Shown here piece by piece: positions 26,503-45,225 of a stretch of DNA of 64,000 bases; the stretch's first letter is position 1; each line of letters opens with the position of its first letter. A program made the position numbers and the translations under genes. The stretch spans positions 1 through 64,000 of the forward strand of contig JAQUPQ010000003.1 of the NCBI GenBank assembly GCA_028716525.1. The letters are read 5' to 3'. The notes below the pieces were generated by a model. The model worked only from the letters and a program-made list of their open reading frames with translations, was not told the origin of the DNA and searched no databases. This DNA comes from Terriglobia bacterium. Its GTDB lineage: Bacteria > Acidobacteriota > Terriglobia > JAIQFV01.

Positions 26503-26594
26503 TGGCGGAGGCGGTAGGATTCGAACCCACGATCCCACTTCCGCGGGATAACGGTTTTCAAGACCGCCGCCTTCAACCACTCGGCCACGCCTCC
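26503..26594 (-). tRNA. tRNA-Ser (anticodon TGA)
   Basis: Minus-strand type II tRNA of 92 nt with a long variable arm: acceptor GGAGGCG/CGCCTCC, D-arm GTGGCCGAGTGGTTGAAGGC, anticodon loop CTTGAAA, T-arm GGTTCGAATCC, encoded CCA. Lies about 220 nt downstream of serS on the same strand. Confidence 0.95.
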
Positions 26595-29908: not shown

Positions 29909-31238
29909 CGACGATCCCACCACGCTGCAGCTGCTGCACGAATCCCTGGCCGGCGAGGGACATGCGGTCACCACCTCGACCAGCGGCGAGGAAGCCTTAA
30001 AACTCGGGCACGAGCAGGCGTTCGACGTCGTCATCAGCGACATCAAGATGGGTCTGGGAGTGAGTGGACTGGACGTGTTGAAGAGTTTTCGACAGATCAA
30101 TCCCCAGGCCGACGTGATTCTTATGACCGCGTTCGGCTCGATGGAAACCGCCATCGAAGCGGTCAAGGCCGGGGCCTACGACTACATTTCCAAACCTTTT
30201 CGCTTGGAAGAAATCCTCCTGATGCTGGAACGCCTGGTGGAGCGGCAACGGCTGCAAAGTGAAAACATAAACCTGCGGCATCAACTGGAAGAACGCTTTT
30301 CACTCTCTTCCATCGTGGGACGTTCTCCGCAGATGGTCGAGGTCTTCAAGAAAATCGGCTATGTCGCCGATAGCCGCTCGACCGTACTGATTACCGGGGA
30401 AAGCGGAACCGGCAAGGAACTGGTCGCCAAGGCGATCCATTACAACAGCGGTCGGGCTTCCAAAAAATTCCTCGCCATCAACTGCGGCGCGTTAACGGAG
30501 TCATTGCTGGAATCGGAGTTGTTCGGACACGTCCGCGGCGCCTTTACCGGCGCCATGACAAACAAGAAAGGGATCTTTGAAGCGGCGGAAGGCGGGACGG
30601 TCTTCCTGGATGAAGTATCGGAGATGTCTACGGCGCTGCAGGTGAAATTGCTCCGGGTGCTGGACGAACAGGAAGTTCGTCCGGTGGGCGGATCCAACTC
30701 GATTCATTTCGATGTCCGCATTATTGCCGCCAGCAACAAGGACCTCCAGGAGACCGTGGAACAAGGAAAATTCCGGCACGATCTCTTGTACCGGCTGAAC
30801 GTCATCAACATTCACTTGCCGCCGCTCCGCGAACGCCGCGACGATATTCCCCTGTTGATCGGACACTTCCTGAAAAAATTCAGTCAACCGTCTTCCTCTC
30901 CTTTGACTCTGGCCGACGATGCCCTCGATGTCTTGACCCATTATTCCTGGCCCGGCAATGTCCGAGAATTGGAAAATACCATCGAATCCTCTGTGGCCTT
31001 GACTCGCACCGGTGTGATTACCGCCAAGGAATTGCCCGCCCGCCTCAGAGAACAGCCTTCCACGGCCCCCACCGAAAACATCTTCTCCGATATGCCTTCA
31101 CTGGATGAGCTTGAACGCCGCTATCTGCTGCGCGCCTTGGAGGCTGCCGGAAACAACAAATCCCGTGCCGCTGAAATTCTGGGCGTCAATCGAAAAACCT
31201 TGTACCGCATGGCGGAACGGTATGGAATTAAGATCTGA
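29877..31238 (+). CDS. Sigma-54-dependent response regulator, NtrC family
   Basis: 453 residues from ATG 29877; the frame continues upstream antisense-free inside the kinase but the receiver domain starts here (NILVVDDDPTT). D55 is the phosphoacceptor and K106 the conserved lysine. AAA+ domain: Walker A GESGTGKE (174-181), the sigma-54 contact loop GAFTGA (221-226), Walker B TVFLDEVSEM. Fis-type helix-turn-helix at the C terminus (NNKSRAAEILGVNRKTLYR). The intact GAFTGA means it should activate sigma-54 promoters. Its TGA stop merges into a heptad array. Confidence 0.93.
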   Translation: MPTPLNILVVDDDPTTLQLLHESLAGEGHAVTTSTSGEEALKLGHEQAFDVVISDIKMGLGVSGLDVLKSFRQINPQADVILMTAFGSMETAIEAVKAGAYDYISKPFRLEEILLMLERLVERQRLQSENINLRHQLEERFSLSSIVGRSPQMVEVFKKIGYVADSRSTVLITGESGTGKELVAKAIHYNSGRASKKFLAINCGALTESLLESELFGHVRGAFTGAMTNKKGIFEAAEGGTVFLDEVSEMSTALQVKLLRVLDEQEVRPVGGSNSIHFDVRIIAASNKDLQETVEQGKFRHDLLYRLNVINIHLPPLRERRDDIPLLIGHFLKKFSQPSSSPLTLADDALDVLTHYSWPGNVRELENTIESSVALTRTGVITAKELPARLREQPSTAPTENIFSDMPSLDELERRYLLRALEAAGNNKSRAAEILGVNRKTLYRMAERYGIKI

Positions 31239-31288
31239 GTGACGAGTGGCGAGGAGACAGTGGTTAGTGACGAGTGATTAGTGGCGAG
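31238..31288. repeat. Heptad array at the ntrC-type stop codon (left half)
   Basis: Seven units on a strict 7-bp register: AGTGACG, AGTGGCG, AGGAGAC, AGTGGTT, AGTGACG, AGTGATT, AGTGGCG. The first base is the last base of the regulator's TGA stop. The first four units (28 bp) recur as a perfect inverted repeat at 31749-31776. Confidence 0.9.
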
Positions 31289-31322
31289 AAAGGAATGCTG
31301 CGGCTAGTTGACTCTTAGCGTG

Positions 31323-31703
31323 TTATGCAGCGCGCACATTGAGTTTCCGACGCAACCCATTCAGCATTTTGCGCACTTCTTCCAAAATTGCAGTTGCTAA
31401 TACTGCTTGTTGAGGTGAACAAAGACTGAGGTCCTGGGCGAGCATTAATTGGGTATCAAGTTCTGCAGCCGAACCCTGAGCATGGGAAATGAATTGAATG
31501 AATTCTTTCGTTGTGTGTCGTGCCTGCCCCTCTGCGATGTTCGAAGGGACAGAAACCGCAGCACGACGCAACTGCGAAACCAGGCCAAATCTTTCATCTT
31601 GTGGAAACCCCCGCGTCAACTCGTAAATCTCTTTCACCAACAGCATGGCCTTTTGCCAGACCAGTAGATCCCGATAACTCTTCGGCCCGTCGGCATTCTC
31701 CAT
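31323..31703 (-). CDS. Four-helix-bundle protein, S23 / 23S-rRNA intervening-sequence family
   Basis: 126 residues. SYRDLLVWQKAMLLVKEIY, then RFGLVSQLRRAAVSVPSNIAEG and FIQFISHAQGSAAELDTQL are the signature of the four-helix-bundle family (TIGR02436), first seen in open frames inside 23S rRNA intervening sequences of spirochaetes; structurally related to the Avd accessory protein of diversity-generating retroelements. The start at 31703 has AGAGGAG 5 nt upstream. Here it is not in an rRNA gene but alone in the loop of a heptad inverted repeat. Function unknown; RNA or nucleic-acid binding is suspected for the family. Confidence 0.88.
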   Translation of the reverse strand: MENADGPKSYRDLLVWQKAMLLVKEIYELTRGFPQDERFGLVSQLRRAAVSVPSNIAEGQARHTTKEFIQFISHAQGSAAELDTQLMLAQDLSLCSPQQAVLATAILEEVRKMLNGLRRKLNVRAA

Positions 31704-31727
31704 AGAATCTCCTCTGGGGGGTGTTCT

Positions 31728-31853
31728 GGTCACTTTTCACTTATCAATAACCACTGTCTCCTCGCCACTCGTCACTAACCACTGTCTCCTCGGCACTGAT
31801 TTCTCGTCACCATCCACTCATCACTAACCACTAATCACTTCTCACTAACCACT
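31728..31853. repeat. Heptad array at the purH 3' end (right half)
   Basis: Eighteen consecutive 7-bp units with no slip in register, mostly of the form NNNCACT (AACCACT five times, CGTCACT, CGCCACT, CATCACT) and with GTCTCCT twice. Ends 5 nt from the purH stop codon. Contains the complement of the 28-bp block at 31238-31265. Confidence 0.9.
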
Positions 31854-31858
31854 GCTCT

Positions 31859-33454
31859 TCAATGCCGAAAATGCCGCACTCCGGTGAACACCATCGCCAA
31901 GTTCCTCTCATTGGCGGCGGCGATGACTTCGGCGTCCCGCACGGAACCACCGGGTTGGATGATGGCTCGCGCACCCGCCTCGGCAGCAGCGTCAACTCCA
32001 TCGCGGAACGGAAAGAAGGCGTCAGAAGCCACCACACTTTCGGCCAACGACAATTGGCCGGCCGCGGCCTTCATCACGGCCAACTTCACGGAATCGACGC
32101 GGCTCATTTGACCCGCCCCGATGCCCAGCGTGTGTTGATCTTTTGCAAATACGATGGCGTTCGACTTCACATGCTTTACCACGCGCCAGGCAAAACGCAA
32201 CGCCGCCCATTCCGCTTCCGAGGGGTCCCGCTGACTCACCACTTGAATCTTCGACTCATCGAGCAAGGTGGCATTGTGTGTCTGCGCCAGAAACCCGCCG
32301 TCAATTTGCCGCCAATCGATCTGCCCCACCGCGTCCCCGGATTTTTCTGAAGATCGCTCCAACAATCTCAAATTCTTTTTCTTCATGAAAATCTCGAATA
32401 CCTCGGTTTCATATTGCGGGGCCACTATCGCTTCCACAAAAATCTTCGAAACCTCTTCAGCCAGGGTGCGGTTCACGGGGCGATTGAAAGCCATCACGGA
32501 ACCAAAGGCCGACACAGGATCGCAGGCCAGAGCCAACTTGTACGCCCCCGTCACGTCTTCGGCTGAGGCCACACCACAGGGATTGTTGTGTTTCATCAAT
32601 ACCGCCGTGGGGACATCAAATTCCATCGCCAGACGCCACGCCGAATCCAGATCCAACAGATTGTTGTAAGAGAGTTCTTTGCCTTGCAGGGGTTCGGCGG
32701 CGGCCAGGCAATCTCTGGAACGTCCCGCCTCCAAATACACGGCCGCCAACTGGTGGGGGTTTTCTCCATAGCGCAGCTCCCGGACTTTCTTCATGGAAAG
32801 AACCCGCTCATACGGGAAAGAGGGGATCGACCGATTAACGGATTGGCCGTCGTCGGAGACCCTCCAGTCTCCCATCTGTTGTTGAATGGCGGCGTCATAA
32901 GCAGTGGCGGTTTCAAACGCTTGCTGGGCCAAACGCAACCGACGGTCCAGCGACAAGGACCCCTCGTTCTTTTTCAAATCGCGCACCACCTCGGCGTACT
33001 GACGCGGAGCCACCACCACGGCCACATCCATAAAATTTTTTGCCGCAGCGCGAATCAGGGTGACGCCGCCGATGTCGATGTTCTCAATCAGTTCATCGCA
33101 CCGGGCGGCCGGCAAGGCCGCCACCAGTTCGAAGGGATACAAATTCACAACCACCATGTCGATGGGTTCAATGCCCAGCGATTTCAGGGCTTCCATGTGC
33201 GTCGGGTTGGATCGGTTCGCCAACAATCCTCCGTGGATGGCGGGATGAAGAGTCTTCACGCGTCCGTCTAAAATTTCCGGAGATTGCGTCACTTGCGACA
33301 CATCGCGCACCGGAATGGAGGCTTCCCGCAGCATCCGGGCGGTGCCGCCGGTGGATATAATGTGAATACCAAAATCCACCAGACGTTTGGCGAAATCCGT
33401 CAGTCCGGTCTTGTCATGAACACTGATCAGGGCGGTCTGAATGCGACGATTCAT
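31859..33454 (-). CDS. purH: Bifunctional AICAR transformylase/IMP cyclohydrolase
   Basis: 531 residues. N-terminal MGS-like cyclohydrolase domain ([41 protein letters not shown]) and C-terminal transformylase domain with [14 protein letters not shown] and the late [15 protein letters not shown]. Catalyses the last two steps of IMP synthesis. Start at ATG 33454; a GTG six codons earlier is possible. Its stop lies beside a heptad array. Confidence 0.96.
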
Positions 33455-33512
33455 AATTGTTTTCCCGGTCACACAAGGTCATGGGATTCGAAAATCGGTT
33501 GGTTGACGCGCA

Positions 33513-34154
33513 CTAACTATTTTCCGCGGGAGGAGAATCCGGCGGTGTGTCCGGCGACACAGACGGCGTCTTGACCGGAGCGGCCTGGAATTTCACTTTC
33601 GGGCCATCCAACACCACCATAAAAGCCACGGCGCGGCACTGGTTCGACTGAATCATGTGCCGCGTCTTCTGGTCCACAAAGGAGGCGAAAGCTTCAAACG
33701 AAGGAACTTTCGAAGTGTCGTGAAACTCGTCCCGACACTCCTTGAGTGCTTCGTACAATCTCAAAATCTTCTGAACATCGTTTTCCGGCCGGGCCACGAC
33801 TTGTCGAAACAGAACCGCCCGCATCGATCCGCGTCTTGCTGCGGAGGAAGTATCGGGGCTCGGACGCGCTCCCGGAGTCAGGGAATAAGGGCGCAGTCGC
33901 CCTTCTTCCAGCATTCTCATCCGTGTCCGCCACAAATCGCTGAAGACGGAGAACCGGGCCGCCAGGGTGTTATACCGGAAGCGCAGGTGCGAACTCAGCT
34001 TTTGTGTATCGCTGAATTTCTTGAGACCGAATTCCACGCGGGTCTGGCGATCCAGCGGCGGCTTCTTGGCTCCGCCATTGAAAAAGACGTCGTACTCGAT
34101 CTTGAGACGCCGGAGGTTGTCGGCCACCAAATCCAATTCTTCATCGACCGTCAT
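33513..34154 (-). CDS. Conserved protein resembling the MXAN_5187 C-terminal domain
   Basis: 213 residues, no signal peptide. LRRLKIEYDVFFNGGAKKPP, LSSHLRFRYNTLAARFSVFSDLW and RMLEEGRL are the pattern of a family named after MXAN_5187 of Myxococcus, as I remember it. A variable linker (about 92-110) precedes a helical segment and a Pro/Ser tail. Function unknown. 58 nt upstream of purH on the same strand and divergent from selA. Confidence 0.5.
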   Translation of the reverse strand: MTVDEELDLVADNLRRLKIEYDVFFNGGAKKPPLDRQTRVEFGLKKFSDTQKLSSHLRFRYNTLAARFSVFSDLWRTRMRMLEEGRLRPYSLTPGARPSPDTSSAARRGSMRAVLFRQVVARPENDVQKILRLYEALKECRDEFHDTSKVPSFEAFASFVDQKTRHMIQSNQCRAVAFMVVLDGPKVKFQAAPVKTPSVSPDTPPDSPPAENS

Positions 34155-34237
34155 AAAAAATCGAGTCTAGAGCCTGCCGTTGGAGGCCGTCAATCAAAAA
34201 TTTGACACTTCAATTTTGCCTGTGATTGAATGCTCCA

Positions 34238-35701
34238 ATGCCTCAATCAACCCCTGCTGTGCGACGTCCCAAACACGCAAAAAGAAATTCCAATGCCCCG
34301 GAAGAACTGCTCCGCCAAATACCCGCGGTGGATCAAATTCTGCGTCAGACGGCCTGGGTGCAGCTTCTCGAACGTTTCCCCCATGGGGCGGTAGTGGAGG
34401 TTTTGCGGAGTCAGCTCACCCGCATGCGTCAACAAGCACGTCTCGGAAAACTGGATCGAGAAGCATTCGGCCGGGCATTGGAGGCCTTGCCGGAGAGCAC
34501 GCGTCTATTGCTCGAAAAACAATTTCTCCCCTCGCTTAAAAAAGTGATCAACGCCACGGGCGTGATCCTCCACACCAACCTGGGACGCGCGCCGCTCGGG
34601 AAAGCAGCGCTGGAGAGAATTCACGAGGTGGCGACCTCCTACTCCAATCTGGAATTTGATCTTGAAAGGAATGAGAGGGGTCGGAGGGATGTTCACGCGG
34701 CACGTCTCCTCACGCGCCTGCTTCCCGCCGAAGCAGCGTTGGTGGTTAACAACAACGCCGCCGCGGTGTGGCTGGCGTTGAACTCCTTGGCGGAGGGCGG
34801 CGAGGTGATTGTCTCCCGGGGCGAATTGGTGGAAATCGGCGGGTCCTTTCGAATTCCTGAAATCATGCGTAAAAGCGGGGCCGTGCTTCGCGAAGTCGGC
34901 ACCACCAACCGGACCCGGGTGAGCGATTACGCCCGCGCTATCAACAAGAACACGCGGTTGATCCTGCGCGTGCATCGCAGCAACTTCCGCGTGGTGGGCT
35001 TTACCGAGCAACCGCCGCTTCAGGAACTCGTCCGGCTGGCCCACAAGAAAAAACTTCGGGTGCTCGAAGATCTCGGCAGCGGATGCCTGGTGGACTTGAA
35101 ATCGTCCGGCCTTTCAGAAGAACCCACGGTCGAGGAGAGCTTAAAAGCGGGAGTCGATGTGGTGACGTTCAGCGGCGACAAGCTGTTGGGCGGTCCGCAA
35201 TCCGGCATCATTTTGGGTCGAAGGAAGCTGATTGAACCCCTGCGGGCCAATCCCATTTACCGTGCTCTGCGCGTCGATAAGCTCACCTTGGCAGCGCTTG
35301 AAGCCACACTTCTGGCTTACCTTCGGAAAGACGAAAGAGAGACCCTGCCGATCTTGAAAATGATCTTTGCTCCGGCGAATGAGATCCGACTTCGTTCGGA
35401 ACGCTTTGTCGAGAAAGCTCAGAATGCGCTTCCTTACAATTCCGGTATTTCATTCCAGATCATCGAGGGAAAATCCGTTATGGGCGGGGGGTCCACACCC
35501 GGGGAAAGCCTCCCCACGTTTCTGATTTCTGTTCGCGCCGCTTCCTATTCTGCCGGAAATCTGGAAAAGCATTTCCGCACTCAGCTCATTCCCATCCTTG
35601 TTCGCGTTGAACACAATCAGGTTTTAATTGATCTTCGGACCGTCTTCCCCACCGAAGAAGACCATCTTCTCAATCATCTCGTTCTCTTGTTGAATTCGTG
35701 A
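34238..35701 (+). CDS. selA: L-seryl-tRNA(Sec) selenium transferase (selenocysteine synthase)
   Basis: 487 residues, usual length. RQIPAVDQILRQ at the N terminus, NATGVILHTNLGRAPLG, VNNNAAAVWLALN, EIGGSFRIPEIM, and PLP lysine K315 in FSGDKLLGGPQSGI. Converts seryl-tRNA(Sec) to selenocysteyl-tRNA(Sec) using selenophosphate. ATG 34238 chosen over a TTG 4 codons earlier; neither has a clear ribosome-binding site. selB, selD and tRNA-Sec are not in the window. A decayed second SelA C terminus lies at 36599-36773. Confidence 0.95.
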   Translation: MPQSTPAVRRPKHAKRNSNAPEELLRQIPAVDQILRQTAWVQLLERFPHGAVVEVLRSQLTRMRQQARLGKLDREAFGRALEALPESTRLLLEKQFLPSLKKVINATGVILHTNLGRAPLGKAALERIHEVATSYSNLEFDLERNERGRRDVHAARLLTRLLPAEAALVVNNNAAAVWLALNSLAEGGEVIVSRGELVEIGGSFRIPEIMRKSGAVLREVGTTNRTRVSDYARAINKNTRLILRVHRSNFRVVGFTEQPPLQELVRLAHKKKLRVLEDLGSGCLVDLKSSGLSEEPTVEESLKAGVDVVTFSGDKLLGGPQSGIILGRRKLIEPLRANPIYRALRVDKLTLAALEATLLAYLRKDERETLPILKMIFAPANEIRLRSERFVEKAQNALPYNSGISFQIIEGKSVMGGGSTPGESLPTFLISVRAASYSAGNLEKHFRTQLIPILVRVEHNQVLIDLRTVFPTEEDHLLNHLVLLLNS

Positions 35702-36022
35702 CACCTCGGCATCACAGACGCATTTGTGGAATGAGCTGAAAAGGCGGAGTTCACCGTTTTTGGATTTTTGCGGGGCGTGAACCTGCGCCTTGCCGAGAGG
35801 ACCACGCCTCCCAAGAAAAAACAACCCCGGGGGGTCCAAGGAAAGCATTTGGAGGTATACTTGTCTTATGCCGTGGACCAATATGGAAGTCCCGGTTAAT
35901 CCGATAAAATAAGTGGCGTTGCTGATCATCAGCAGCCCCCGTGTCGAAATCGAAGTCGGACATTGTCGTCCTTAACCGGCTTGAAGGTCGGCGCGATCAC
36001 ATGTCTCAGGAGAGGAACATAA
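35702..36022. other. Interval between selA and the secreted protein at 36023
   Basis: 321 nt with no gene I can support. It has a 13-bp perfect palindrome, GCTGATCATCAGC, at 35931-35943, and the ribosome-binding site of the next gene. No selB start is visible. Confidence 0.4.
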
Positions 36023-36550
36023 ATGCGAAACACATTGATGATTACAACAATACTGGCAACTGTCCTCACGCTGTCGACAGCCCGACCTGCCTACGCCGGG
36101 GCCCTCAAATCAGCACAAGACTGCGTCCTCGGCAAGCGCGTGGTGACGAGCGACGGACACAAAGGAAAGATCACCCGCGTGGATCGCGCCTGGAGCTACT
36201 GTTATGTCTTGCAGGATGATACGGGCAAGGAAGTCAGTTATCTGTACTCGCTGCTTCAAACCGACGACGCCAACAGCCCGAAGAGCGATCATAACGACAA
36301 GCTGGTCATCGGCAAGTACAACTGCTGGGTCGGGACTGAGGGCGCAGCCTCAGGATTTCAGGTCACCGGGCCTTCCACGTACGAAAGCGATGGTAAGAAA
36401 GGCACGTACCAATTGGAACCGTCCGGAAAAATTGTGTTTAAAAGCGGACCGTTTTCGACTTTCCACGCCAAGCTTCTCTCCGACCGGAGGGTCGGGCTGA
36501 ATATGACCGGCGGTACGTTCTACAACATGACCTGTGATCCGCCTAAATAG
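36023..36550 (+). CDS. Secreted protein of unknown function
   Basis: 175 residues. Signal peptide 1-25 (TILATVLTLSTARPAYAG). The mature protein has four cysteines (DCVLG, SYCYV, YNCWV, NMTCDPP) that could form two disulfides. The N-terminal half resembles an SH3-like fold (GKRVVTSDGHKGKITRV, WSYCYVLQDDTGKE); the C-terminal half has STYESDGKKGTYQLEPSGKIVFKSG, a pattern of small exported proteins. GGAG and GGAAC precede the ATG. It sits between intact selA and a selA remnant. Confidence 0.65.
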   Translation: MRNTLMITTILATVLTLSTARPAYAGALKSAQDCVLGKRVVTSDGHKGKITRVDRAWSYCYVLQDDTGKEVSYLYSLLQTDDANSPKSDHNDKLVIGKYNCWVGTEGAASGFQVTGPSTYESDGKKGTYQLEPSGKIVFKSGPFSTFHAKLLSDRRVGLNMTGGTFYNMTCDPPK

Positions 36551-36598
36551 ACGGTCCGCCGCGGCTCAGCGAGAAACCATTCCCTCTTCTTGATTGAG

Positions 36599-36773
36599 GT
36601 CCGCGGGGCCTTGCGCTCCGCGGCCTCCTTCAAGAAACAGTTTCAGGACCAACCAGCCCTGCTCCTCGTTCGCGTCCAACACAATCATAGTCTTAGTTGA
36701 TCTTAGGGCAGCCTTCCCAACCGAAGAAAATTTCCTCATTGCAGTCATTCGGCATCGCTTCACTGCAGCTTGA
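36599..36773 (+). pseudogene. Decayed 3' end of a second selA
   Basis: Read from 36599, the frame gives VRGALRSAASFKKQFQDQ and PALLLVRVQHNH; after one extra base at 36689 it continues VLVDLRAAFPTEENFLIAV and ends at TGA 36771-36773. This parallels the intact SelA end (VRAASYSAGNLEKHF, LIPILVRVEHNQ, VLIDLRTVFPTEEDHL). Nucleotide similarity is plain but far from identical, so this is an older or foreign copy rather than a fresh duplication. Its end overlaps the 3' end of the minus-strand gene at 36760. Confidence 0.75.
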
Positions 36774-37617
36774 ACACCGTCGGATCCACGGGTTGGTTGA
36801 AAGAAGCCTTCGAATAATTCATATCCCACTCGGTTCTCGCGGAGCCCTCTGCTTCCACAAGAAAATGGATGTTCCAATGCAAGGGAAGCATCAGCCCCTC
36901 CACTTCCTGAAAATTATCGAAGTGCTCTTCAATTTCCCATCGGGTGTCCGGTTGGCGGGCCGATTCTTCGGGCCTCCCGGTGACCAGTTGAGCCGACTTC
37001 ACCAATCGATAAATCGATCCCACATGTCGAAAAGTGTCCGGGTCAAAATACAACAGAATGTTGAGATCGCCGGCACCCTTCGGCATATACCGCAGTTCGT
37101 GAGCCGGCTTTCCGTTGAATTTCTTGATGCCGTTATAACTCACCTTGGCGTCCAACCTGGGGCGATTTGTTAATGCCCAGCCGGTGGAGAGCACTCCGCC
37201 CAACAATCCTTGTTTCACCAGAACACTATGGTCAAAGAGGAACTGGCCGAGGCGGGAACGAAAACCCACCTGGACAAATCCCGTGTCAAACATCTTCCCA
37301 TCAAAAGCAAATTGCTCCGCCGGATAGTTGGTGTGATTGAACTTTATGTTGAAACGAATCTTATCGTCTTCGGAAACAAAGATCGCTTTCCCCGACAAGG
37401 AACCCAAACTCCCCGTCAGATTTCTCCAAGCCCCATCCCCTTCCAGAATACATGACTTGCGGGCCTGCAGTTTTTCCGCCGGGCCGATCGCCTTCAAGTG
37501 ATTCGAAATCAATTCCTCGGGGTTGATTTTGTCTTTGGCCGATAGAGAAATACCCGACATTAAGACTAGAATCGGAATTAAAAGTTTCTGAATGGTTTTC
37601 TGATTATGGCGAATCAT
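36760..37617 (-). CDS. Secreted protein of unknown function (LolA/lipoprotein-sorting-like layout)
   Basis: 285 residues from ATG 37617, with AAGGAGG 10 nt upstream. Signal peptide about 1-27 (LLIPILVLMSGISLSA). NPEELISNHLKAIGPAEKLQA is the kind of start seen in exported proteins with an outer-membrane-lipoprotein-sorting fold, followed by beta strands and FDPDTFRHVGSIYR, TRWEIEEHFDNFQEVEGLMLP. No lipobox. The family is common in acidobacteria as far as I know; function is not known. Confidence 0.6.
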   Translation of the reverse strand: MIRHNQKTIQKLLIPILVLMSGISLSAKDKINPEELISNHLKAIGPAEKLQARKSCILEGDGAWRNLTGSLGSLSGKAIFVSEDDKIRFNIKFNHTNYPAEQFAFDGKMFDTGFVQVGFRSRLGQFLFDHSVLVKQGLLGGVLSTGWALTNRPRLDAKVSYNGIKKFNGKPAHELRYMPKGAGDLNILLYFDPDTFRHVGSIYRLVKSAQLVTGRPEESARQPDTRWEIEEHFDNFQEVEGLMLPLHWNIHFLVEAEGSARTEWDMNYSKASFNQPVDPTVFKLQ

Positions 37618-37836
37618 TGCAGTCAAGCCTCCTTAGTTGCTGTTATCTTAGAAGATATTTGCGGCGGGGAAAAGCAATTAAACGTCCGTGTGTTTGCTGA
37701 ACTCCATCGGCGCTTGGGGCAAAACTGAAACCCCGTATAGACTTTTGAACCGAGTAGTGGGAATGGGGGCGGGGCACCGGGCAGCGCCCTCGCTTCCTGT
37801 GAAAAGTATCTGAACAACAAGCCTCGAGGTTTGCTC

Positions 37837-38400
37837 TTACCTCACCCGTTCCAAGTAGGTGCCTTCTTCGGTGTCGACGCGCACCACGTCGCCTTCATTA
37901 ATGAAGGCCGGCACCTGGACGATGATGCCGGTTTCGACCGTCGCCGGCTTGCCCACATTCGAAACCGTTGCGGACCGCAAGCCCGGCTCGGTCTTCAGAA
38001 CCTTCAAATCCACTGTGGCCGGGAGTTCCGCCCCAATTGGCCGGCCCTCAAAAATCATCACTTTGATTTTCAAGTTGGGTGTCAAATAGTCTTTGTTTTC
38101 GCCGAGCAGTTCTTCGGGAATGTTGATCTGCTCGTACGTTTCCGTATTCATGAAATAGTAATCGCTGCCGTCCTTGTACAAAAACTCCATCTCGGACTCA
38201 TCGACATTGACCCTTTCGACGGAATCCTGGGAGCGAAAACGATGCTCATAGATGGCCCCCGTTCGCAGGTTGCGAAGCTTGGCTTGCACGAAGGCCCGCA
38301 GATTCCCCGGCGTGCGGTGCTCCACGCTGAATACCATGTGCAATTCGTTGTTGTGTCTGATCAAATTTCCTCGACGCAGGTCGTTGGCCATCACGAACAT
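37837..38400 (-). CDS. efp: Translation elongation factor P
   Basis: 187 residues: KOW-like N domain and two OB domains, ending VVRVDTEEGTYLERVR. Relieves ribosomes stalled on polyproline. GGAGG lies 11 nt before ATG 38400; MANDLRRG at 38391 is an alternative start. The tip of the domain-I loop, where E. coli carries the beta-lysylated K34 in PGKG, reads TPGNLRAFV here, placing Asn at that position, so neither the EpmA-type lysine nor the EarP-type arginine is present. Confidence 0.93.
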   Translation of the reverse strand: MFVMANDLRRGNLIRHNNELHMVFSVEHRTPGNLRAFVQAKLRNLRTGAIYEHRFRSQDSVERVNVDESEMEFLYKDGSDYYFMNTETYEQINIPEELLGENKDYLTPNLKIKVMIFEGRPIGAELPATVDLKVLKTEPGLRSATVSNVGKPATVETGIIVQVPAFINEGDVVRVDTEEGTYLERVR

Positions 38401-38428
38401 AAAATTCAAATCCTCCGTTTAGATTTCT

Positions 38429-39970
38429 TTAAAATGATTTTCGGGATTGAGAAGGAGGCTCTGATTCAGGCGCCGCCGCTTTCTTGATCGGCTCGGCCTT
38501 CATCATGCGTTCCACCTCCTCAATGGAGCTCCCCAAGCGCGCCGAAAGTTTGATCACCCGGCCCTGATCGTCGACCGCATAATCGTCCTCAATCCGCACA
38601 CCCAGTTTCTCATCCGGAATGTAAATTCCCGGTTCGATGGTAAACACCATGTTCTTGTCGATGGGGTGGCTGCTGTCCCCCACATCATGAACGTTCAGAC
38701 CGATCCAGTGACCGATGCCGTGGATAAAATAATTATCCAGAGTGTCGGTCGGCCCCTTGGGTCCGCGGAGCGGGCTCTTTTTGAAATATTCCCTCGCCAG
38801 GTCCGTCAAATCCCGCAGCGTCGTCTTTCCCGGAAGGATGGACTTGAAAGCCGCGTTCTGCGCGCCTAAAACCAATTCATATATTTCCTTCTGACGCGGC
38901 GAAAATTTTCCACTCACCGGGAAGGTGCGCGTGATGTCGGCGGCATACCCTCCACATTCCGCCGCGGCATCAATCACCACGGTGTCGCCGGATTTCATCT
39001 CGGCGGAATTCTTGTTGTAATGCAGAGTTGTGGAATTGATGCCGGAGCCGACAATCGGCGCATAGGCGGCACGATCGCAGCCTTCCGATTCCCAGGTGTA
39101 CCTCAGTCGAGCCGCGATCTGGTATTCCATGACTCCGCTCCGGATTTCGCGGGCCGCGTCCAAATGCGCGTCCACAGACGCTTCCACGGCCTTCCGGAGA
39201 AGTTCCATCTCACTCTTGTCCTTCGTCAGACGCAAGTTGTCGAGGGAGCGCCGGACATCGTGAATTTCAGCGAAAGGCGCAGCCGTCCGGAGCATCTCGA
39301 CCTTTTCCTCTTCCCTCGAGATCCGAATATCCGATCCCGGCGCCGGAAACAAGGTGTAGATGCGGCCTCCCGATGACAGAGCGTTGGTCAATTCACCTGG
39401 AAAGCGGCCCAAGGGAAGAACCAGAGGAAGACCGGTTACCTCCAAAGCCTGTTTGTTCAAGGCATCCATTTTGGGGCCGGTGTAGCGCTCCCGTACGGGG
39501 TCGCGCTCAGGGAGAAACAGAATTTCACGCACCGTGTGTTCGCTGGGAAACAAGGCCGTGGCGATATTCTGTCGGCCCTTGGGAAGCAGCATCAGGACGG
39601 CGCCCGGTTCTTGCCATCCCGTCAGATAGTAGAATTCATCCTCCTGACGGAAAGGTGTCAGATCGGCGCCGGGATTCTCGGATTCTTTCAGACCAAATAG
39701 CACGATCACCCCGTCTTTGACCTGATCCATCAATTTCACGCGGCGCGCGTGGAACACTTCCGAGGGTTCACCGGCCCGCAGCGGTAAAGCGCCGCTTGCC
39801 CACAACAGGAGCACCAATGCGGCCGTTCGAATAGATGTTCGAATCCCATGCCGACTTACGGCACCAACAAAAAACCCAGCGCAACTTGATGATCGCTGGG
39901 TGGAGGGGCGGACACGTCGAACCGTGCAATAGGACGAACGAACCTGTATCGGACCGCTGCGTGGAAACAT
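38429..39970 (-). CDS. Exported M24 metallopeptidase (Xaa-Pro aminopeptidase type)
   Basis: About 513 residues. N-terminal aminopeptidase-P domain (about 65-220, RRVKLMDQVKDGVIVLFG) and a pita-bread catalytic domain with the five metal ligands in order: Asp in TVVIDAAAE, Asp in YAADITRTF, His in FIHGIGHWIG, Glu in FTIEPGIY, Glu in RIEDDYAV. A hydrophobic stretch at about 45-66 (TAALVLLLWASGALPLRAG) is a signal peptide or anchor, so the true start may be later than the ATG at 39970. It starts next to the stop of the GT2 gene, with which it is probably cotranscribed. Confidence 0.82.
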   Translation of the reverse strand: MFPRSGPIQVRSSYCTVRRVRPSTQRSSSCAGFFVGAVSRHGIRTSIRTAALVLLLWASGALPLRAGEPSEVFHARRVKLMDQVKDGVIVLFGLKESENPGADLTPFRQEDEFYYLTGWQEPGAVLMLLPKGRQNIATALFPSEHTVREILFLPERDPVRERYTGPKMDALNKQALEVTGLPLVLPLGRFPGELTNALSSGGRIYTLFPAPGSDIRISREEEKVEMLRTAAPFAEIHDVRRSLDNLRLTKDKSEMELLRKAVEASVDAHLDAAREIRSGVMEYQIAARLRYTWESEGCDRAAYAPIVGSGINSTTLHYNKNSAEMKSGDTVVIDAAAECGGYAADITRTFPVSGKFSPRQKEIYELVLGAQNAAFKSILPGKTTLRDLTDLAREYFKKSPLRGPKGPTDTLDNYFIHGIGHWIGLNVHDVGDSSHPIDKNMVFTIEPGIYIPDEKLGVRIEDDYAVDDQGRVIKLSARLGSSIEEVERMMKAEPIKKAAAPESEPPSQSRKSF

Positions 39971-39972
39971 CC

Positions 39973-41610
39973 TCAACCCACCTTGGCTGTGTTCTTCGAA
40001 AACCAGCCGGTTAAATTGCCTAAAAAAGCCTGGCGTATGGCCCGCAGATTGGCCATATAGGTCTGCATCAGAGACATGAACCCGGTGTACAAATACCCGA
40101 TCACAAACAAAAGCAGGAACGGCGTTACCGCGTAATCTTCGTTGATGATGAGGTAATAGACCGTCACAGCAAAGTAAGTTCCCAGCAACAATTCGATGTA
40201 AGGGGTAAACCCGCTCTTGCGCCGGTACTTCTTCACGGTCCAGGTGTCTTTCTGATTTTCAATGCGATATTTCGGAGTCCGTTTGAAACTGGTTTGAATT
40301 CCCAACAGGGCTTCGATCACCGCGCGCGTGTTGGAAATGGAAAGACCAATCCCCACCGACATCAAAAACGGCAGATACTTGATTTTTCGCCACCAGGTGT
40401 CCGGAAAGAGCTCCCGCTGTGAGACCAGATAAAATGACGAAATCGAAAACGTGGAAGCCATGAACAACGGCAGGTCGATCCACAACATCTGCGACCAGCC
40501 CTGATAGAAGCGCACGATGGTGGCCGGCAACAGGATGAGCGACAGGATGACCATCAAGGGATAAGCGATGTTGGCGGTGAGATGAAAGAAGGCCTCAATC
40601 TTCACGCGCAGGGGAAGCTGGGCGCGCAAAATCATGGGCAGATCCTTCTTGGCGCATTGAATCAACCCTTTGGCCCATCGGAACTGCTGCACCTTGAAGG
40701 CATTCATCTCCACGGGCAACTCGGCATCGCACACAATCTCCGGAACGTAAACAAACTTCCATCCCTGCATCTGGGCGCGATAACTCAAATCGGTATCTTC
40801 GGTAAGGGTGTCGTGTTCCCATCCTCCGGCAGTTTCAATCGCTTTGCGGCGCCAGATCCCGGCCGTTCCGTTGAAGTTGAAAAACCGTCGGGCCAAGAAT
40901 CGGGCCCCGTGTTCGATCACAAAGTGGCCGTCGAGGAGAATTGATTCCACCTGTGTCAGGAAGGAATAATTGCGATTGATATGCCCCCATCGCGTCTGCA
41001 CCATGCCGACCTTGGGCTCGGTAAAATAGTGGATCGTGCGCTCTAAGAAATCCGCCGGGGGCGTGAAATCGGCGTCAAAAATGGCGATGAATTCTCCCGT
41101 GGCGGTCTTCAGGCCCTCTTCCAGGGCGCCCGCCTTGAACCCGGTACGATTGCTGCGGTGATGATAGGAGATGTCGAGGCTTGTTCCGTGATATCGTTCG
41201 ACCACTTGACGCGCAATTTCCTGGGTCTCATCGGTGGAGTCATCCAACACCTGCACCTGCAGCAGCTCCCGCGGATATTGAAAGTGACTGACCGCCTCGA
41301 CCAGGCGGTCTACCACATAGAGCTCGTTGAATATAGGAAGTTGAATGGTCACACGAGGCAGGGAATCGAACCGCGACGTAATCTTGGCGCGGTTGGCGCG
41401 GTGCTTGAAATAGAGATAGACAAGATGATAACGGTGAAATCCGTACATCGCCAGGATGGTCAACACGGTGAAGTACGGGATCAGGAGCATCAGGTCAAAA
41501 CCATTTGCCTGATACAGGCCGACGAAACGATCATGTGGAAATACGGAGCGCCACGCCTTATCCCAAGGCGAAAGGGGCGCCATCACGATTAACAGATTCA
41601 TCCAACTCAT
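39973..41610 (-). CDS. Membrane GT2 glycosyltransferase, cellulose-synthase-like
   Basis: 545 residues from ATG 41610. One membrane span near the N terminus, a cytoplasmic GT-A domain with RVTIQLPIFNE, VLDDSTDET, the metal DxD in IFDADFTPP, TEDTDLSYR and the processive-type QQFRW, then four or more C-terminal spans. Builds or transfers a polysaccharide, probably beta-linked; ceramide glucosyltransferase-like bacterial enzymes share the layout. No PilZ domain. A consensus promoter lies at 41827-41854 with a 210-nt leader. Confidence 0.85.
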   Translation of the reverse strand: MSWMNLLIVMAPLSPWDKAWRSVFPHDRFVGLYQANGFDLMLLIPYFTVLTILAMYGFHRYHLVYLYFKHRANRAKITSRFDSLPRVTIQLPIFNELYVVDRLVEAVSHFQYPRELLQVQVLDDSTDETQEIARQVVERYHGTSLDISYHHRSNRTGFKAGALEEGLKTATGEFIAIFDADFTPPADFLERTIHYFTEPKVGMVQTRWGHINRNYSFLTQVESILLDGHFVIEHGARFLARRFFNFNGTAGIWRRKAIETAGGWEHDTLTEDTDLSYRAQMQGWKFVYVPEIVCDAELPVEMNAFKVQQFRWAKGLIQCAKKDLPMILRAQLPLRVKIEAFFHLTANIAYPLMVILSLILLPATIVRFYQGWSQMLWIDLPLFMASTFSISSFYLVSQRELFPDTWWRKIKYLPFLMSVGIGLSISNTRAVIEALLGIQTSFKRTPKYRIENQKDTWTVKKYRRKSGFTPYIELLLGTYFAVTVYYLIINEDYAVTPFLLLFVIGYLYTGFMSLMQTYMANLRAIRQAFLGNLTGWFSKNTAKVG

Positions 41611-41826
41611 CTCACCAACCCCAATCGAAAACACCCCTCTCAGCACTTTGTGAGGAGATGAAGAAGACCCAAATCCGAGAATCTCAAGCCATGGGTTTGG
41701 GTGGCTCTGATTTCTTGATGCTTGCGCGAACCAACCGGCCACAGAAACGAAACCGACAGCGGTTGAGACTGTCGGTCAGGACGGCGCGATGTCTAACGGC
41801 CTCTTCGTGGCCACCGGAGCTTTCTG

Positions 41827-41854
41827 ATTATAGAGGTTCAGGCCAAATTGTCAA
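41827..41854 (-). promoter_or_regulatory. Consensus sigma-70 promoter for the GT2 gene
   Basis: On the minus strand TTGACA (41854-41849) and TATAAT (41832-41827), both perfect, with 16 nt between. Transcription would begin near 41820, giving a leader of about 210 nt before the GT2 start codon. Confidence 0.65.
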
Positions 41855-42051
41855 CGGAAGGACGGCCTCTGTGGCTTCACCCGCGTTGATTCAAAGAGAT
41901 CTATTTCAGACATAAAATGGCCTGATTAGGGATTCCCCATTCCCCACGTTTTCGTGCCCGGAAAGACCCTGAAATACACCAAATCGTGTATTCGAAAACC
42001 CCTGTAAAATATGGGTCAAATTTAAATTCGGAAGCTGCAACCTGTGCCTTA

Positions 42052-45179: not shown

Positions 45180-45225
45180 TAAAAACACAACGGCCTGGAG
45201 GAGATGAAATTCTCACTCCAGGCCG
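45180..45225 (-). terminator. Rho-independent terminator for the Rho_N-like gene
   Basis: On the minus strand a 10-bp stem CGGCCTGGAG/CTCCAGGCCG with a 15-nt loop is followed by TTGTGTTTTT. Lies between converging genes and may also serve the plus-strand gene. Confidence 0.75.

Follow-up and report, generated by a model that had tools for sequence, protein, structure and literature searches.

A remnant of a second selA gene beside the intact selA of a Terriglobia bacterium

Gene order at the selA locus

Between selA and efp, the window (the whole stretch of 64,000 nucleotides analysed here) holds about 2.1 kb comprising a spacer, a gene for a secreted-type protein, the remnant of a second selA and a convergent gene for a 288-aa protein (Table 1). 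The window belongs to a contig of 183,505 bases in a draft genome of 4.2 Mb and 104 contigs. selA and efp are arranged tail to tail in 12 relatives from families f1, f3, f4, f5, f8 and f14, and the distance between them (14 measured loci from 12 genomes) is ≤281 bases in 10, including one locus (L089) whose gene ends overlap by 6 bases, and about 1 kb in 2. These loci come from 102 examined for efp, many of which have just 1.5 kb of flank, where a missing efp says nothing. The two loci with about 1 kb between selA and efp (L011 and L024, family f4) carry no second SelA tail. Beyond efp, the genes in the two other genomes of the same family (G001 and G002) keep the order seen in the window.

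Table 1 Features of the selA-efp region, with positions in the window
Feature	Position	Strand	Basis
Intact selA, L-seryl-tRNA(Sec) selenium transferase, 491 aa	34226..35701	+	TIGR00474, PF03841
Spacer between selA and secreted-protein gene, no similarity found	35702..36022		Similarity searches
Secreted-type protein gene, 175 aa, signal-peptide-like start (judged by eye)	36023..36550	+	ORF
Remnant of second selA, residues 422 to end, front missing	36563..36773	+	tblastn, DNA alignment
Hairpin inside remnant, 20 pairs, -34.7 kcal/mol	36587..36636		Folding; strongest 51-mer in window
Extra base breaking remnant frame (exact base alignment-dependent)	36689	+	Alignment
Convergent lipoprotein-like gene, 288 aa	36760..37626	-	Weak LolB/DUF4292 resemblance below cut-off
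efp, elongation factor P, ancestral convergent neighbour of selA	37837..38409	-	Pfam; order in relatives

The secreted-type protein belongs to no Pfam or NCBIfam family. Among 399 genomes of the class, 4 besides that of the window have a clear homologue of its gene, all of them in family f5; both same-family genomes lack it, giving a patchy distribution. No selA was found in the 8-12 kb around each of the 4 homologues and no donor arrangement that joins selA to this gene, and PLSDB, searched for the protein on plasmids, returned no match. The 288-aa gene, the end of which overlaps the end of the remnant by 14 bases, has two paralogues in the same genome (contigs C49 and C1) and no Pfam family over the cut-off. 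Among the 61 nearest genomes, which include no other member of genus g1, relatives of its product are confined to G001, G002 and G003, and the best of those in G001 and G002 are encoded on other contigs than the selA of these genomes. The insert has no second copy in the genome, and a search of positions 30000-42000 gave no RNA families.

The resident SelA passes TIGR00474 at full length (575.8 bits against a cut-off of 267.9, positions 1-453 of 455), and a PF03841 search finds one SelA in the genome. The selenocysteine pathway is complete, with SelA, selB (137562-139439 on the same contig), selD and a tRNA-Sec gene, and the same set is present in G001 and G002. In all three genomes selD carries an in-frame TGA (G000:C101:2480-3406, locus L123, in the genome of the window), and its product is probably itself a selenoprotein. 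The best tRNA-Sec match of the genome is on contig C9; a tRNA-Ser gene at 26503-26594 also narrowly passes the Rfam tRNA-Sec cut-off (47.6 versus 47 bits). The SelA matches of four relatives (G009:C56, G035:C15, G042:C190 and G046:C31) contain an in-frame stop, TGA in two and TAA in two.

Extent and kinship of the remnant

A tblastn search of the window with the resident SelA (491 aa) finds, besides selA itself, one significant place (E 3e-7), composed of two linked pieces that cover residues 422-465 (36563-36688) and 466-482 (36690-36740); the next-best match has an E value of 0.59. The preliminary description, made from the letters and reading frames, had recognised here a SelA C terminus interrupted by a single additional base, with the secreted-protein gene at 36023 lying between it and selA, and both points are borne out. 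It had placed the start of the remnant at 36599, whereas similarity to the resident SelA begins near 36563, next to unrelated sequence and 12 bases past the stop of the secreted-protein gene (36550). Lenient tblastn for selA sequence upstream of 36563 gave noise only. The remnant thus matches the last ~70 residues of a SelA (resident residues 422-491) and ends in a stop codon of its own (TGA, 36771-36773), one codon later than that of the resident. At the DNA level, 54 of 66 positions are the same as in the selA 3' end (82%, E 4e-13 for 260 versus 1797 bases searched).

A database match to SelA, on which the preliminary reading of the remnant depended, was found. Read across the break, the remnant peptide matches the C-terminal end of TIGR00474 (positions 400-454 of 455) weakly, at E 0.017 and 14 bits, and no other NCBIfam family; this lies below the curated cut-off, marking a fragment and not a SelA gene, and a Pfam search with the peptide gave no match. 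The best match of the remnant in any other genome has an E value of 5e-5. Matches at E ≤ 0.01 occur in 79 of 399 class genomes, only that of the window having more than one, and among 103 loci with a tail match (105 given) a second tail is present at this locus only. With homology to a known gene, truncation and a broken frame, the remnant has the marks of a pseudogene, and we read it as the dead tail of a second selA copy.

Kinship was assessed with an alignment of 90 SelAs (102 loci offered, 97 past the length filter, 90 after removal of identical sequences). Trees included 53 of these, chosen by locus number and mainly from Acidobacteriota, with one Alicyclobacillus record (L033), together with the resident and, in the tail tree, the remnant. 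Over 51 residues the remnant is 55% identical to the resident, versus ≤33% to the 90 other SelAs (33% to G002 and 29% to G001), and the two have family-rare residues in common (for example, H at 0.01 and F at 0.04). The tree of 55 tails pairs them with modest support from 51 columns (SH-aLRT 90, below the 95 mark), and gives end branches of 0.78 for the remnant and 0 for the resident. Because of this identity, the common rare residues and the pairing, the remnant is best described as a faster-changing sister of the resident gene and not as a deep or foreign copy. The suggestion that it is older or foreign is not supported, since its nearest relative is the resident and the change in the pair lies on the remnant side. 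Of 29 majority positions of the family, the remnant differs at 18 and the resident at 10; departures as large as that of the remnant (up to 0.68) also occur in some distant SelAs that are intact.

The resident SelA groups with G001 and G002 in trees of residues 1-360 and of residues 361-491 (SH-aLRT 82 to 94; 90). Owing to this family grouping in both halves and to the tail-to-tail order with efp, kept as in the 12 relatives, we regard the resident selA as inherited; it falls with the relatives of the organism and not outside them, as xenologous displacement would require, and it is unlikely that a selA from another family took its place, since the resident also sits in the ancestral position. 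One result fits this less well: across residues 361-460 its identity to G001 and G002 is hardly above that to other families. A foreign 3' third of the resident SelA was considered and dropped, given that the tree of residues 361-491 still groups it with G001 and G002; a tail exchange with a close relative is possible.

Decay of the remnant and the hairpin within it

Decay was examined with a codon model that takes site preferences from the SelA family and allows one stretch of evolution under those preferences plus one neutral stretch. The best fit for the resident and the remnant is 0.8 substitutions per site under selection and 0.15 neutral. Selection alone fits less well by 5.9 log units (by 3.8 if the hairpin codons are removed), a sign of relaxed constraint. 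Setting neutral and functional time equal, which a clock would predict if the copy had been dead since it arose, loses 4.9-5.3 log units over codons 1-51. The observed gain was reached in 0 of 200 simulations under each simpler model. Eight settings, differing in base composition, transition rate, pseudocounts or family membership, all left the two-part model ahead, with a margin of 3.3-9.0 units against selection alone and of 4.5-5.4 units against equal times. For control pairs of intact genes (resident-G001, resident-G002 and G001-G002) the fit calls for no neutral stretch. The functional part of 0.8 resembles the distance between G001 and G002 (0.75-0.9), which are two species of one genus. 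Without the 17 hairpin codons (1-17), the equal-time model costs just 1.9 log units, so decay from birth, that is, plain duplication followed at once by decay, is possible.

Codons 26-47 are more alike between resident and remnant than the flanks are, at silent sites too (scan-corrected P 0.02): among same-residue codons, 5 of 16 differ in this block and 9 of 11 in codons 1-25. Gene conversion of the block was set aside as an explanation, since hairpin remodelling of the flank can explain the pattern.

The remnant is an ordinary one with one odd feature, a strong hairpin formed by the first 51 bases of its aligned part (36587-36637), which begin 36 bases past the stop of the secreted-protein gene. 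Its folding energy was reached by 0 of 12,790 window 51-mers (sampled every five bases), and for a 58-base stretch around it the z-score relative to shuffled sequences is -7.0. The matching stretch of the resident folds weakly (-10.4), the best fold in the aligned DNA of the 90 relatives is -30.5, and no comparable hairpin was found past the stop codons of the 4 homologous secreted-protein genes (best -24.2). Translated, the 17 hairpin codons agree with the resident SelA at 9 residues, and ~127,600 other window 51-mers reach ≤7; on this match the hairpin is read as having arisen within selA-derived DNA. Of its 20 pairs, 12 are already possible in the resident. The resident stretch given the same number of random changes folded to ≤ -30 in 0 of 20,000 trials, and shuffling the new bases of the remnant among the changed sites did so in a fraction of 0.00015. 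No second copy of the hairpin was found in the genome.

The hairpin is strong, G+C-rich and placed past a stop codon, as expected of an intrinsic terminator hairpin. It lies between convergent genes and may end the transcript of the secreted-protein gene; no T run is visible 3' of it and it was not listed by the terminator scan. A stop codon between convergent genes is also the setting of two further strong hairpins in the window, at 45191 and 18676. Across 45 window genes, 7 pass the 5% background level for a hairpin past the stop codon, and there is no mean shift towards stronger hairpins (P 0.87).

Selection for a transcript end and template switching at an imperfect inverted repeat would each explain the hairpin, and the data cannot separate them. 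Template switching at imperfect inverted repeats is described as making hairpins (PMC8794818), and the remnant resembles that account in having changes grouped so that a weak inverted repeat became a strong hairpin; the event at this locus is putative, and selection for a terminator would look alike. We raise only tentatively the idea that the dead selA tail was remodelled into a terminator that stops transcription of the incoming gene and protects it from its convergent neighbour. The remodelling would perhaps have come about by template switching from one arm to the other of a weak inverted repeat that selA already contained. If the hairpin is a working terminator, coding DNA would have turned into a regulatory structure with its starting sequence still readable next door.

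Origin of the second tail

The reading we favour, and consider reasonably probable, is that a second selA copy of the resident's own lineage existed here and that its tail died after DNA had joined in beside selA. The locus started with selA tail to tail with efp, and the ~2.1 kb came between them later, in this lineage. Incoming DNA with the secreted-protein gene would have joined the end of selA on one side by homology pairing with selA and on the other illegitimately, at about codon 422, leaving a complete selA to the left of the new gene and, to its right, a front-truncated tail, displaced or duplicated. This tail has since decayed through one frame-breaking base and changes at conserved residues. 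As regards the joining itself, we infer that one-sided insertion, the simplest account with one event, is the most likely mechanism. Its left crossover was not located in the sequence comparison. The remnant would then be a scar recording how, in one lineage, a patchily distributed gene arrived next to selA while the selenocysteine pathway stayed intact.

Remnants at Vibrio cholerae T6SS effector genes are proposed to stem from homology-facilitated illegitimate, or one-sided, recombination, and similar one-sided recombination has been proposed for Rhs loci, as cited in the same source (PMC5361080). Like the effector loci described there, the present locus combines an intact gene, a newly arrived gene and an orphan 3' end; it differs in that selA is a housekeeping gene, the event is single, and the mechanism is a candidate one, for which no anchor or donor was found.

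The main rival to insertion is a tandem selA duplication in which one of the copies later lost its front; this would leave a similar picture. Somewhat doubtful, though far from negligible, is a local duplication, in which a selA tail was copied within the genome to a place next to the secreted-protein gene and never coded thereafter. Such a copy would have the resident as its nearest relative and nearly all amino-acid change on its own branch, as is the case, and by our own reasoning the differences by codon position (22, 19 and 40 over 60 codons) are near those expected from one neutral and one constrained branch; the small cost of the equal-time model once the hairpin codons are removed also favours it. 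Over all of codons 1-51, however, that model is 4.9 log units worse, a difference that 0 of 200 simulations reach, and the sequence 3' of the remnant does not repeat that found 3' of selA.

The preliminary description had proposed that the present selA replaced a former one. Replacement of an older selA by a foreign gene, with the remnant as the rest of the older one, is improbable: a second copy did exist and residues 361-460 of the resident are hardly closer to G001 and G002 than to other families, but both halves of the resident place it with its family, its position is the ancestral one, and the remnant is closer to it than to anything else. Still less probable is the relic of an integrated element for which the selA 3' end served as attachment site and which brought a replacement tail with it. 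The geometry fits, with an intact gene that has one tail, a cargo gene and a displaced tail, but the insert has no integrase-sized open frame besides its two genes and no identical core longer than about ten bases at its two ends (the common stretch is just 82% identical over 66 bases), and it lacks a second copy in the genome. An assembly or binning artefact is scarcely credible, for although the genome is a draft of many contigs, this contig is long, its flanking gene order is as in relatives, and there is no second copy of the insert elsewhere in the genome.

A literature search found no report of a comparable selA remnant, which is no proof of absence. A frame-shifted selB pseudogene is described in Yersinia pestis strains (PMC1273633); it is likewise a frame-broken gene of the selenocysteine pathway, but at the present locus an intact selA remains, the pathway is complete and the trait is kept.
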